This document shows, one piece after another, positions 20,889-25,066 of a stretch of 56,106 nt of DNA. The stretch's first letter is position 1, and each line of letters opens with the position of its first letter. The position numbers and the translations under genes are program-made. The notes under the pieces are model-generated. The model ran no database searches, was not told the origin of the DNA, and worked only from the letters and a program-made list of their open reading frames with translations. The DNA comes from an uncultured Rhodospirillales bacterium (GTDB lineage Bacteria > Pseudomonadota > Alphaproteobacteria > Acetobacterales > Acetobacteraceae). The stretch is from assembly GCA_903865895.1 (NCBI GenBank), contig CAIPLM010000231.1, forward strand, positions 1-56,106. The letters run 5' to 3'.

Positions 20889-22661
20889 CTATGTGAACGT
20901 GAACCAGGTCGGCTGCAGGCCGAATGTCGACTCAAAGCGGATGGAGCCGCCGTCGGGTGTGGCAACTTCGGTATAGCTTCCAAGGCTGTCGAAGCCGGTG
21001 CTGCTGGCGGCTTGGACGTCAGTGTAGCTGGCCAGGCCTGCGAAGCCTTGCAGGTTTACCAGGACACCGCTGAACCCGGCGCCCTTGATGGCGTCATGGC
21101 CGTGCCCGGCGGCGAACGTGATAGTATCGGGCGCGGCATCGAAGCTGTTGTATACGCCGTAGCTCTGGTTGCCCGCGCCGTCGGCGATGTGGTCGCTGTA
21201 GATTGTGCCGTCGATCGCGGAGACGCCGCTCAGGAAGTTGGTCGGGGAGTCCGCGATCTGCAGCGTGTGCGCGTTGATGTCGATGGTAGCGGCGCCACGT
21301 GCAACGGCGGTGAGGTCGAGCTTCCAGTCGCTGCCGTCGAAGTGGTTGCTGCTGAAGGTGAGGGTGCCGGAGGCCGCCGAAAGTGGACCGCTCAACCCGG
21401 TACCGTTGGCTGCGGTCAGGCTGAGATGGAGCGTGCCGCCGCCCGCGAGGTCGATGGAATTGTTGGAGAGGACAACCATGGGCGTGCCCGTGGTGCCGGG
21501 GAGGCCTGGGGAGCCAGGGGTTCCAGCTATGGAGGTATTGCCGCCGAAATAGCTGGAACTGCCGCCGCTGCCGCCGGCGCCGCCACCATTCTGGGAGCCG
21601 GCGCGAGCGATCAGCGAAATTGTCAGGTCGAGGGAGGCGGAGGCGGTTACTACGTTGCCCGCATAGGTCGCTGTGGCATCTCCGCCAGTGCCGCCGGCGC
21701 CGCCCCTACCCCCGTTGGTGTAGGTGGTCGTCGTGCCCTGGCCGCTGATGGCTTGGACGGAGGCCCCGGCGCTCCCACCATCGCCCCCGTGCCCTGCGCT
21801 GCCGCCGAAAGCGGAGACCGACATCCCCATGCTGCCTGCGCTTGTCACCGTGAGGCCGAAATCGGACAGACCCGCCGAGGCGAGGCCGCCATTGCCGCCA
21901 TCGCCGCCGGTGCCGCCGCTGCCGCCCGGGCTGCCACTGCCGCCAGCACCTGCCCGCCCGCCGGTGCCACCCGTGCCGCCCGAGGCCGTGGCCTGGAAGC
22001 TCCATGAACTCCCGCCGGCGAGGGTCCCCTGCACGTGATCGACTTGCGCGATCGAGTTGGCTCCATTGCCGCCGCGGCCGCCTTGCCCGCCGTTGCCGGC
22101 GGTGCCGCCATGGCCGGTCGGGGTGATGGTGGAGCCGCCGGAGCCGTCCGGCACGGCAATGGCGCTGTCAAATCCCGCGTAACCGCCGGTGCCGCCATTG
22201 CCGCCGATCCCGCCATTGCCGCCGGCGGCACTCGCGCCCAAGGGCGCGATGTCACTGGTCAGCGCGTCGGTATCGCCGAGTTGAACGTCGGACAGGGTGA
22301 TGGTCACCCGATTGCTGCCGCCGCCGTTGCCGCCCCTCCCGCCCGTTCCGGCGTTGCCGTAGTTGTAGCCGCCGATGGCATTGGCCTCAGACGTTCCAGC
22401 CCGCCCGGTTGTGCCAGCTCCGCCATTCCCGCCGGTGCCGCTCTGTGCATAGGGCGCAAGGGTGAGGGCGGGGGCGCCCGGGCTGGAGTACGCGGGTGTG
22501 CTCTTGAGATGGGCGGGCGCGGGCGTGAAGCCTTGGCCCCTGCCGCCGGCACCACCGCTGCGGGCAGCGGCGGTGCCAGGGAGGCCTGAGCCACCGGACG
22601 TGCCGAAGCGGGGGGAGTTGAGCAGGGCGAGCAGTCCCGGCGTCAAAGAACGGAGTGCCAC
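20889..22661 (-). CDS. Glycine-rich, collagen-like, RTX-like secreted/surface protein
   Basis: 590 residues from GTG at 22661, chosen because CGGGAG lies about 8 bases upstream; an in-frame extension to 22862 lacks such support. There is no Sec signal peptide. Residues about 20-380 are dominated by GGxGG/GTGG/GNGG runs split by short Ser/Thr/Val beta-like blocks. About 380-394 is a Gly-X-Y stretch (GTPGSPGLPGTTGTP). From about 395 the sequence becomes an ordinary beta-rich domain; NQSYGVYNSFDAAPDTITF and AAGHGHDAIKGAGF (about residues 498-530) resemble the C-terminal ends of RTX / type I-secreted proteins. The run composition recalls mycobacterial PE_PGRS proteins, but there is no PE domain. 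Secretion and adhesin roles are inference; no type I secretion genes are in the window. Confidence 0.75.
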   Translation of the reverse strand: MALRSLTPGLLALLNSPRFGTSGGSGLPGTAAARSGGAGGRGQGFTPAPAHLKSTPAYSSPGAPALTLAPYAQSGTGGNGGAGTTGRAGTSEANAIGGYNYGNAGTGGRGGNGGGSNRVTITLSDVQLGDTDALTSDIAPLGASAAGGNGGIGGNGGTGGYAGFDSAIAVPDGSGGSTITPTGHGGTAGNGGQGGRGGNGANSIAQVDHVQGTLAGGSSWSFQATASGGTGGTGGRAGAGGSGSPGGSGGTGGDGGNGGLASAGLSDFGLTVTSAGSMGMSVSAFGGSAGHGGDGGSAGASVQAISGQGTTTTYTNGGRGGAGGTGGDATATYAGNVVTASASLDLTISLIARAGSQNGGGAGGSGGSSSYFGGNTSIAGTPGSPGLPGTTGTPMVVLSNNSIDLAGGGTLHLSLTAANGTGLSGPLSAASGTLTFSSNHFDGSDWKLDLTAVARGAATIDINAHTLQIADSPTNFLSGVSAIDGTIYSDHIADGAGNQSYGVYNSFDAAPDTITFAAGHGHDAIKGAGFSGVLVNLQGFAGLASYTDVQAASSTGFDSLGSYTEVATPDGGSIRFESTFGLQPTWFTFT

Positions 22662-22688
22662 GTTGATTTCTCCCGAAGGGCGCCGCGC

Positions 22689-22739
22689 CGCATCGCGGAT
22701 GCGGCCACGTATGTTTAGCCTACATATTGGTAGGACTAA
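22689..22739 (-). promoter_or_regulatory. Inverted repeat and leader hairpin upstream of the glycine-rich gene
   Basis: TTAG-CCTAC-ATATTG-GTAGG-a-CTAA (22715-22739) is a dyad with 9-bp arms and one bulged base, set in a local A/T-rich patch. It has the size and symmetry of a dimeric regulator's operator. Nearer the gene, CGCATC-gcg-GATGCG (22689-22703) is a small hairpin in the probable leader. The regulator is unknown. Confidence 0.45.
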
Positions 22740-23247
22740 TGATCTTTTGGGAGCAAGTGGGCTCACCAGATGTTGACCGGGCGCCGTCCGCGGGCTTGCC
22801 ATCGGGCTGACGTTGATCGCGCGGGCGTCAGGCCTAACCTGTTGCGCTGCTAGGCGAGCCATGCAGGAGGGCGGTCGGTCCGCGTTGGACTGACAAGGCG
22901 AGCCCGCGCGGTTGCCGATCGGAGAAACGTGACTCCGGTGGATTGCAGGCGGCTAGCGTTGTTGAAAGCGGATGGTCCCGTCATTGTACTGCGCCGCCGT
23001 CGTCTACGTCCCGATGCCGGCGATCTTGGCGCCGTTCGCGGATATGACATGCGCATTTTGGAAGGGGTGGAGAAGCGGCGCTGATTGCGAGCACGCTGCG
23101 GGCGGTGCGCAAGCGGGCTCTGGGAGGGGCGACCAATGCATGGCCCGGAGGCAGGAGATGCGATTTCGCATGCCCTGGCGCGAACTGCCCTCCGGATGAT
23201 CGGGGATGTCTCCGGGCTGCATGGGGACTCTCGCTGTGGACGCAAAA
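22740..23247. other. Intergenic stretch without a convincing gene
   Basis: About 500 bp between the glycine-rich gene and the SOS-type promoter. It holds only weak short frames. The best is GTG 22929 to TGA 23084 (51 codons) with GGAG upstream and a basic, Arg-rich product (VIVLRRRRLRPDAGDLGAV). It might be a small gene or a decayed gene end; I cannot decide. No repeat or RNA gene is recognised. Confidence 0.4.
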
Positions 23248-23291
23248 GTTCAATTTTCGTTCTTGATTTTTGTCCGTGACCAGTGTATATT
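23248..23291 (+). promoter_or_regulatory. LexA-type SOS box adjoining a sigma70 promoter
   Basis: GTTC-N7-GTTC (23248-23262) is the direct-repeat LexA box known from alphaproteobacteria. It abuts TTGATT (23263-23268), which is 17 bp from TATATT (23286-23291). A start near 23298 would give a leader of about 30 nt to the ATG at 23328. The half-site alone can occur by chance in 56 kb; the exact placement next to a good promoter, in an A/T-rich patch, is what supports it. Confidence 0.6.
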
Positions 23292-23327
23292 CCCAGCGTT
23301 CGCCATCGCATCAGCAAAGGACCCCCG

Positions 23328-23756
23328 ATGTCATCCGCCGCTTCCCTCCAACCGGACCCGCTCAGCGCCCTGATGCGCCGCCTTGCCGTCCTGTTGATGG
23401 GGCTGCTGGGGTCGTTTTTGGCCGAGTTGCTGGCGGAGCGGGATGCGCTGCCGGTGGGGGATGGGCGGCGGAAGCGGGTGATGGGGAAGATTGCAGTGGT
23501 GCGGCGGGCGCTCGCGCAGATGGAGGCGCAGGCGAAGTCGGGGGTGCACGAGGAGGTCGAGTATGTTCTCGTGCCGGCGCCGTGGCGGTTGCTGTATTCC
23601 GTGCGGCTGGGTTGCCGCGTCGTCAAGGGCGGCCGTGGTGGCGATGCACGTGGGCGTGCGATGCATCCGCGGCTGCTGCATCCTCCGGATTGGGTGGCGT
23701 GCTGGCTTTGGTCGATAGGCAACCGCCCGCAAGGCGGCGCTGTCGTGCGGCCATAG
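23328..23756 (+). CDS. Hypothetical protein with hydrophobic N-terminal segment, possibly SOS-regulated
   Basis: Not recognised. It has 142 residues from the ATG at 23328 (AAAGGA upstream); an earlier in-frame ATG at 23283 overlaps the -10 box and is rejected. Residues about 13-34 (LMRRLAVLLMGLLGSFLAEL) could be a membrane or amphipathic helix. Next comes a basic, helical stretch (GDGRRKRVMGKIAVVRRALAQME). The C-terminal third is His/Trp/Gly-rich without a known motif. Codon third positions are strongly G/C, as in real genes here. It is the first gene behind the LexA-type box and lies 32 bp before rarA, so both are probably co-transcribed. A DNA-damage-related role is inference from position only. 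Confidence 0.6.
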   Translation: MSSAASLQPDPLSALMRRLAVLLMGLLGSFLAELLAERDALPVGDGRRKRVMGKIAVVRRALAQMEAQAKSGVHEEVEYVLVPAPWRLLYSVRLGCRVVKGGRGGDARGRAMHPRLLHPPDWVACWLWSIGNRPQGGAVVRP

Positions 23757-23788
23757 GTCGGCGGGCCGTGCTGGGCTATGCATCGGGG

Positions 23789-25066
23789 ATGACTCACACC
23801 GTTCCACCGCTTGCCGACCGGCTGCGCCCCAGTGGGCTTGAGGATGTGGTCGGCCAGGATCATCTGGTCGGGCCGGCAGGCACGCTGACGCGGATGCTGG
23901 CGCGGGGGTCACTCGCCTCGCTGATCCTGTGGGGGCCGCCGGGGGTGGGGAAGACGACGATCGCGCGACTGCTGGCGGATCGGGCGGGGTTGGAGTTCAC
24001 CCAGTTGTCGGCGGTGTTCTCAGGGGTGGCGGATCTCAAGAAGGCGTTCGATGCCGCGCGGCTGCGCCGGTCGATGGGGCAGGGGACGATGTTGTTCGTC
24101 GATGAGATCCATCGCTTCAACCGGGCGCAGCAGGACGGGTTTCTGCCGGTGGTGGAGGATGGGACGATCACGCTGGTGGGGGCGACCACGGAGAACCCAT
24201 CCTTCGCGCTGAACGGCGCGTTGCTGTCGCGCTGCCAGGTGCTGGTGTTGCGGCGGCTCGATGATGCGGCGTTGGAGCGGCTGCTGGCGCGGGCCGAGGC
24301 GGAGGCGGAGCGGGCGTTGCCGCTCGACGAGGAGGCGCGGGCCGCGCTGCGGGCGATGGCGGATGGCGATGGGCGCTATGTGCTGAACATGACGGAGCAG
24401 TTGCTGGCCTTGCCGATCGACACGGCGCCGCTGACCGGGGCCGCGTTGTCGGAGCTGCTGGCCAAGCGGGCGGCGCTGTATGACAAGGACCGCGAGGAGC
24501 ACTATAACCTCATCTCCGCGCTGCATAAGTCGCTGCGCGGGTCGGATGCCGATGCCGCGCTCTACTGGCTGGCCCGCATGCTCACTGGCGGGGAGGACCC
24601 GCGCTATATCGCGCGGCGCCTGGTGCGCTTTGCCAGTGAGGATATCGGGATGGCCGATCCCAACGCCCTCGTCCAGGCGATGACGGCGTGGGAGACGTAT
24701 GAACGGCTGGGCAGCCCGGAGGGCGAACTCGCCATTGCCCAGGCGGTGGTCTATCTCGGTACCGCACCTAAATCGAACGCCTTGTATGTCGCGCTCGGCG
24801 AAGCCAATCGGGCCGCGCGCGCCACTGGAAGCCTGACACCCCCCATGCATATTCTCAACGCTCCCACCCGCCTGATGAAGGACCTCGGCTATGGGTCCGG
24901 CTATGCCTATGACCACGAGGCGGAGGACGGGTTCTCCGGCCAGAACTATTTTCCGGACGGCATGAAGCGGTCGCAGTTCTACCGGCCGCAGGAGCGCGGC
25001 TTCGAGCGGGAGATGCTGAAACGGCTGGCCTATTGGGATAAGCTGCGGCGGGAGCGTGGGGCATGA
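23789..25066 (+). CDS. rarA: Replication-associated recombination protein RarA (MgsA)
   Basis: AAA+ ATPase related to clamp loaders and to WRNIP1, acting at stalled replication forks. It has 425 residues from the ATG at 23789; a much longer in-frame version would run through the preceding gene and is rejected. Walker A GPPGVGKT is at residues 49-56, Walker B LFVDEIHRF at about 102-110, and sensor 1 in GATTENPSF at about 131-139. The C-terminal MgsA domain has YDKDREEHYNLISALHKS and SGQNYFPDGM. It overlaps the next gene by 4 bp (ATGA) and may share the SOS-type promoter. Confidence 0.96.
   Translation: MTHTVPPLADRLRPSGLEDVVGQDHLVGPAGTLTRMLARGSLASLILWGPPGVGKTTIARLLADRAGLEFTQLSAVFSGVADLKKAFDAARLRRSMGQGTMLFVDEIHRFNRAQQDGFLPVVEDGTITLVGATTENPSFALNGALLSRCQVLVLRRLDDAALERLLARAEAEAERALPLDEEARAALRAMADGDGRYVLNMTEQLLALPIDTAPLTGAALSELLAKRAALYDKDREEHYNLISALHKSLRGSDADAALYWLARMLTGGEDPRYIARRLVRFASEDIGMADPNALVQAMTAWETYERLGSPEGELAIAQAVVYLGTAPKSNALYVALGEANRAARATGSLTPPMHILNAPTRLMKDLGYGSGYAYDHEAEDGFSGQNYFPDGMKRSQFYRPQERGFEREMLKRLAYWDKLRRERGA

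Follow-up and report, generated by a model that had tools for sequence, protein, structure and literature searches.

LexA-type operators accompany a dispersed family of small basic proteins in an uncultured Acetobacteraceae bacterium

Introduction

Usual accounts of SOS regulons list a small number of genes for repair, mutagenesis, and checkpoint functions. SidA, TisB, DinQ, and SulA are SOS-induced small inhibitors or toxins, colicins are LexA-controlled, and MITE and PATE are known as non-autonomous mobile elements. In excerpts of two articles, the LexA site of Caulobacter is printed as GTTCN7GTTC (PMC12700426, PMC9578287).

Here, we analyzed a stretch of 56,106 nucleotides (the window) from an uncultured bacterium of the Acetobacteraceae, together with the genome containing it (G000; 5.69 Mb, 392 contigs) and genomes of its relatives. 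The putative SOS system of this genome resembles the Caulobacter type in its operator, in the overlap of operator and promoter, and in a core of recA, lexA, uvrA, and an error-prone polymerase, but differs in that a family of small proteins, dispersed through the genome, is the most frequent among the targets identified. This family shares small size, apparent LexA-type control, and a hydrophobic segment with SidA, TisB, DinQ, and SulA. It differs from them by a length of about 130 residues, three predicted helices, and dozens of copies, and lacks a sequence match in Pfam or NCBIfam. With this length and predicted fold, the family members are not the very short, single-span peptides that characterize the TisB/DinQ type.

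Results and discussion

The window locus

A LexA-type operator of the form GTTC-N7-GTTC (GTTCAATTTTCGTTC; its letters read GTTC-AATTTTC-GTTC) is located at 23248-23262, directly 5' of the -35 element (23263-23268) of a sigma-70-like promoter, TTGATT-17-TATATT (23263-23291; -10 element at 23286-23291). Between 23100 and 23900 this promoter is the sole sigma-70-like match (50 shuffles: mean 0.0). A probable ribosome-binding site read from the sequence, AAAGGA (23316-23321), precedes the ATG at 23328 of P0001, an ORF of 142 residues (23328-23756, stop codon at 23754-23756); AAAGGA or an AGGAG-like sequence is likewise found in front of most starts of the family described below. Residues 1-65 of P0001 constitute the match to this family, and residues 82-86 (VPAPW) are part of a second motif. 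At the end of the ORF, a GC-rich inverted repeat (CCGCC-CGCAA-GGCGG, 23723-23737) occupies the position of a 3' hairpin segment in other copies. After 32 bp, rarA follows (23789-25066; all features on the plus strand), encoding an AAA+ ATPase of the MgsA/RarA type with matches to MgsA_C (E 4.3e-67) and to the NCBIfam RarA model (E 5e-63, but under the cut-off of this model).

An earlier note on this DNA had described the box, the abutting promoter, the 142-residue ORF, and the 32-bp gap to rarA, and every coordinate could be verified. Its estimate that such a box arises about once by chance in the window is equally accurate, with one GTTC-N7-GTTC observed and 0.85 expected. As a single box is close to chance expectation, the window by itself cannot decide on its relevance; the box gains weight from the genome-wide box count, the boxes at core SOS genes, and those in front of the P0001 paralogues.

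The SOS system of the host genome

Throughout G000, 104 exact GTTC-N7-GTTC boxes were counted versus 67 occurrences of the reversed control pattern, and 100 of the 104 were examined as loci. A profile search for LexA_DNA_bind returned one match. An exact box ends 50 bp 5' of the ATG of lexA, and another is situated 74 bp 5' of an ORF start taken for that of recA. Further boxes lie 47 bp upstream of uvrA, with ssb adjacent and divergent, 7 bp upstream of an error-prone DNA polymerase gene, and 71 bp upstream of a gene for a ligase-associated exonuclease. Two more box-bearing genes, both lacking a profile match, may be imuA-like. Read on the opposite strand, the recA box matches that of one family copy (L004) in every letter. 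The comparison of the window box with the lexA site of the same genome yields the same kind of box at lexA and also at recA and uvrA, and the identification of GTTC-N7-GTTC as the alphaproteobacterial LexA site agrees with the identical site given for Caulobacter in the excerpts (PMC12700426, PMC9578287).

We rejected an enlarged regulon as judged by total box counts: the congeneric relatives G002, G003, and G004, in which the family was not detected, contain 86, 108, and 116 exact boxes, respectively, in comparison to 104 in G000, so that the family leaves the total not enlarged.

A multi-copy family of small proteins

A search of G000 with P0001 returned 33 rows at E 10; the top-scoring paralogue (7e-6) shares 47% identity with it over residues 1-60. 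Iterated profiles led to an alignment of 26 and later 47 members. With at most 99 or 150 best candidates scored per genome, the family profile matched 40 times in G000 at E 0.001 (41 at E 1), 10 times in the congener G001, and not at all in the congeners G002-G004. The taxonomic family was represented by 397 genomes; in the remaining 395 of them, no match was obtained within the best 10 candidates scored for each. A scan with A2 detected four loci in one Lake Pavin MAG, which is probably G001.

A profile generated without P0001 and its two nearest rows, the G001 orthologue L158 and L159, still found P0001 (E 2.9e-7 among 1817 ORFs), the match covering residues 1-65 and thus the N-terminal half alone. 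The C-terminal half contains the motif V-x-VPxPW, common to P0001 and the box-linked small ORFs L158 and L242 (both G001) as well as L087 and L002 (both G000). In the tree, P0001 and L158 are placed on a long branch. P0001 looks like a diverged member of a family whose small, basic proteins are encoded by many copies scattered over the genome; its status as an orphan is ruled out by the paralogues and by the P0001-free profile match.

For the members scanned, Pfam, NCBIfam, PHROGs, and PADLOC provided no match, apart from a few PHROG or Pfam rows at E 0.02 or worse. PDB sequences gave no meaningful match to the family (best E 0.25), and the scan of P0001 found no named relatives. Among the papers retrieved from the open full-text literature, no title or opening line of an abstract describes such a family. 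An origin from phages or plasmids was discarded, as viral contigs, plasmids, and phages contained no match.

Operators follow the family

Of the 38 start-complete members of G000, 22 are preceded by an exact box at a distance of at most 100 bp, nine by a box with one mismatch, and two by a box with two mismatches, while five have none. The corresponding means in 200 dinucleotide shuffles were 0.14 (maximum 2) for exact boxes and 2.88 (maximum 8) for boxes with at most one mismatch. All exact-box members of G000 had been seeds of the profile, their loci having been fetched by the box. The clean test is provided by G001, since only the protein profile was used to find its members: nine of the ten carry an exact box and the tenth a box with one mismatch (shuffles: mean 0.01). 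The reversed control pattern occurred exactly in 1/38 (G000) and 0/10 (G001) of the same upstream windows.

Three placements can be distinguished. In class A, GAAC-N7-GAAC lies across the -10 region, 22-26 bp 5' of the start, and in class B, GTTC-N7-GTTC covers the same region, 27-31 bp 5' of the start; each of these classes forms a single branch in the tree (with supports of 93/89 and 99/96, respectively). Class C, to which the window copy belongs, is defined by GTTC-N7-GTTC abutting the -35 element, with the box ending 63-66 bp 5' of the start, and comprises eight members from G000 and four from G001 when up to two mismatches are allowed.

Comparing eight G000/G001 pairs, half-sites differed at 1 of 64 positions versus 11 of 56 in the spacers (Fisher p 0.0013), with orthology of two pairs (L141/L155 and L022/L157) assigned from partial flank similarity only. 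At the orthologue of P0001, both GTTC halves are retained at the same position despite changes at four of the seven spacer positions, which corroborates the conservation of the box. Judged from these patterns, LexA regulation of the family promoters is well supported, and the proposal that a LexA-type site controls a small protein of no known family is in line with all of the sequence evidence.

Consequently, we regard it as probable that the P0001 family represents LexA-controlled, damage-induced small effector proteins, most copies being equipped with their own LexA-operator promoter. In the undamaged cell, LexA would block RNA polymerase at the family promoters. Upon DNA damage, RecA-stimulated self-cleavage of LexA would release about thirty copies together, leading to a pool of strongly basic proteins of roughly 130 residues, in which a hydrophobic N-terminal helix may pair with a second helix. 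Counting against this interpretation, 7 of the 38 G000 copies have a box with at least two mismatches or none.

Protein features and a possible effector role

Members of the family measure about 130 residues and show an excess of Arg and Lys. A hydropathy threshold for membrane helices of 1.6 is reached by 32 of 47 members and missed by 15. The predicted model of L034 (pLDDT 74.6, pTM 0.53) consists of three helices (7-40, 46-66, and 74-98) plus a loose tail, and yielded no informative fold match. For the eight G000/G001 pairs, dN/dS ranges from 0.40 to 0.79, compared with 0.04 for rarA, and such high values indicate weak or relaxed protein constraint or fast evolution. The reading frame is intact in nearly all copies, the exceptions being L003 (internal stop) and C385 (a fragment). 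Four pairs (L071/L150, L109/L151, L116/L152, and L074/L156) have a dS of 0.07-0.14, well under the 0.47 of rarA in the same genomes.

By analogy, the most plausible role of the proteins would be that of SOS effectors acting at the membrane or the division site and holding growth or division, an assignment that we make tentatively and with less than even confidence. Such effectors would work like SidA, TisB, or DinQ, without kinship to them, and a candidate role as division inhibitor is possible. Among the members scanned, a comparison limited to Pfam and NCBIfam detected no match to SulA or another catalogued division inhibitor. The weak point of the effector role is given by the 15 members under the hydropathy threshold and by a fold without functional match.

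The repeated unit and its mobility

Relative to the start, similarity between paralogues typically begins at about -80 and ends at about +450, defining a unit of approximately 530 bp that is composed of an A/T-rich upstream stretch, the promoter with its box, the ORF, and a 3' segment. Of 30 aligned ends of this 3' segment, 29 display CGATGTA, after which comes a GC-rich stretch that forms a hairpin; the window copy has no CGATGTA, and its 3' segment is absent from the matches of the covariance model R1. The hairpin was seen by eye and is statistically not established, with an RNAalifold consensus of three pairs lacking any compensatory change and single folds at z values of +0.2 to -2.6, so that R1 rests mostly on sequence. 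Every one of its matches (28 in G000, six in G001) coincides with a family copy, 14 and four copies, respectively, being outside the model. G002 gave no match, and solo 3' segments were not found among 150 candidates scored per genome. Several class B copies contain a REP-like insert (CTCACCCAACCCTCTCCCC) in the 3' segment, and at L072 a divergent ORF is located upstream of the family copy, which may encode a REP-associated tyrosine transposase.

The limits of similarity, the confinement of R1 matches to family loci, and the uneven distribution among congeners (40 matches in G000, 10 in G001, none in three others) would also fit a mobile or selfish cassette lacking its own transposase, whose SOS control ties its spread to damage and whose protein serves its own dispersal and not the host. 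In favor of this idea, the copy L057 resides within a 652-bp stretch that G001 lacks, only 9 bp separating the same flanks there, and the copy L054 is absent from its locus, which is rearranged, in G001-G004. However, the one clean site, that of L057, exhibits neither terminal inverted repeats nor an obvious target duplication, and the missing stretch exceeds the unit, making a loss equally possible. Whole-unit transposon ends were not found by eye. Moreover, DNA identity between paralogues of 66-80% argues against a recent burst, and the lack of matches in viral contigs, plasmids, and phages also speaks against such an element. Many dispersed copies of about 530 bp, a hairpin-forming end, and presence or absence between species are reminiscent of MITE or PATE, but each copy of the family keeps a reading frame and its own promoter, and neither inverted ends nor solo ends were found. 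Overall, dispersal as a cassette is possible; we consider a selfish cassette to be rather unlikely.

A second box-linked family in another genus

In G008, a genome of another genus, the family profile had no match. Out of its 97 boxes, 16 were examined, picked for AT-rich spacers, and six of them lie in front of small ORFs that are clearly related to one another (L225, L227, L228, L229, L237, and L238), with L230 and L231 as weaker members of the same box-linked family. In five members, an ATG lies inside the box. Like the P0001 family, this family is multi-copy, combines a hydrophobic helix with a basic proline-rich tail, and has the box at or near the start; a profile comparison detected no homology between the two (hhalign probability 0.1%).

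The small, basic proteins with hydrophobic N-termini, their fast evolution, and this convergent box-linked family raise the question of whether these are bacteriocin- or toxin-like peptides that the SOS response releases for antimicrobial action or self-killing. Such a function would explain the fast divergence, the many copies, and an unrelated box-linked family elsewhere. Against it, the copies are single-gene units, and no shared neighbor gene was noticed beside them in a crude codon-bias ORF pick with names read by eye; without a shared partner gene, an immunity or antitoxin protein is missing. We judge peptides of this kind to be distinctly improbable.

Damage-induced effectors remain the preferred reading, and the two families allow a wider conjecture, which we put forward with reserve and consider rather doubtful at present: Acetobacteraceae might repeatedly evolve "SOS cassettes" that multiply and disperse, so that a large share of the SOS response would consist of dozens of lineage-specific paralogues, belonging to unrelated families depending on the genus. 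The unit of such a cassette would be roughly 0.5 kb in size, comprising a LexA promoter, a fast-evolving small basic protein, and a hairpin-forming 3' end. Should G000 indeed contain about thirty paralogues with a LexA operator, and a different family play the same role in the other genus (G008), much of the damage response in these bacteria would be lineage-specific and unstudied, and the question of why a single small SOS gene is multiplied becomes testable, with effector dosage, an arms race, and an SOS-using cassette as conceivable answers.

The neighboring rarA gene

The 32-bp gap in G000 and the repetition of the gene order in G001 would suit P0001 as a RarA partner or co-regulated fork-repair factor. 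Among 28 rarA loci fetched, those of G000 and G001 have a box near the gene; of the others, the start could be located in 24 and not in the remaining two. None of the 24 other located loci has a box near rarA, the site of L197 lying 959 bp 5' of the Walker motif. In the congeners G002 and G003 as well as in G006 and G008, only 119-165 bp separate the end of rplQ from the start of rarA, and nothing P0001-like lies in between, while the distance from the rplQ end to the rarA start is 3 kb in the window; in G004, a different gene is found upstream of rarA. Sequence shared by G000 and G001 begins at 23244, 4 bp before the box, and continues through rarA. The approximately 38 other family copies adjoin unrelated genes.

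The tie of the box and the small protein to rarA, as considered in the earlier note, was not sustained by these data, the box being found at 0/24 other rarA loci and the small gene being absent from this position in G002, G003, G006, and G008. RarA as the true SOS target was dismissed, as the box goes with the small gene and not with rarA. A partnership with RarA is very improbable, considering that rarA occurs elsewhere without small gene and box and that the neighbors of the other copies are unrelated. On the evidence of gene order, rarA is an incidental bystander next to P0001, for which damage induction by read-through from the small gene is possible. In the window, the inserted 3 kb that separate rplQ from rarA also contain a glycine-rich ORF of 657 residues (20889-22862, minus strand) without Pfam match, which is missing there in relatives with adjacent rplQ and rarA.

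Finally, binding of the boxes by a different GTTC-N7-GTTC regulator in place of LexA, conceivable as the site is simple, is highly unlikely in view of the same 15-mer at recA, sites of this kind at lexA, at uvrA, and at the gene for the error-prone polymerase, the GTTCN7GTTC site of Caulobacter LexA as given in the excerpts (PMC12700426, PMC9578287), and the one LexA_DNA_bind protein in G000, this being the only repressor family searched.

Other small box-linked ORFs were encountered along the way. L017 in G000 and L243 in G001 each contain an ORF of 72-77 residues with two hydrophobic stretches and a box 32-38 bp upstream, without a family match except for a weak Pfam row (E 0.05). Similar-looking ORFs of 71-73 residues, starting 6 bp after the box, are present at L009 in G000 and on the minus strand of L238 in G008, thus coming from two genera.
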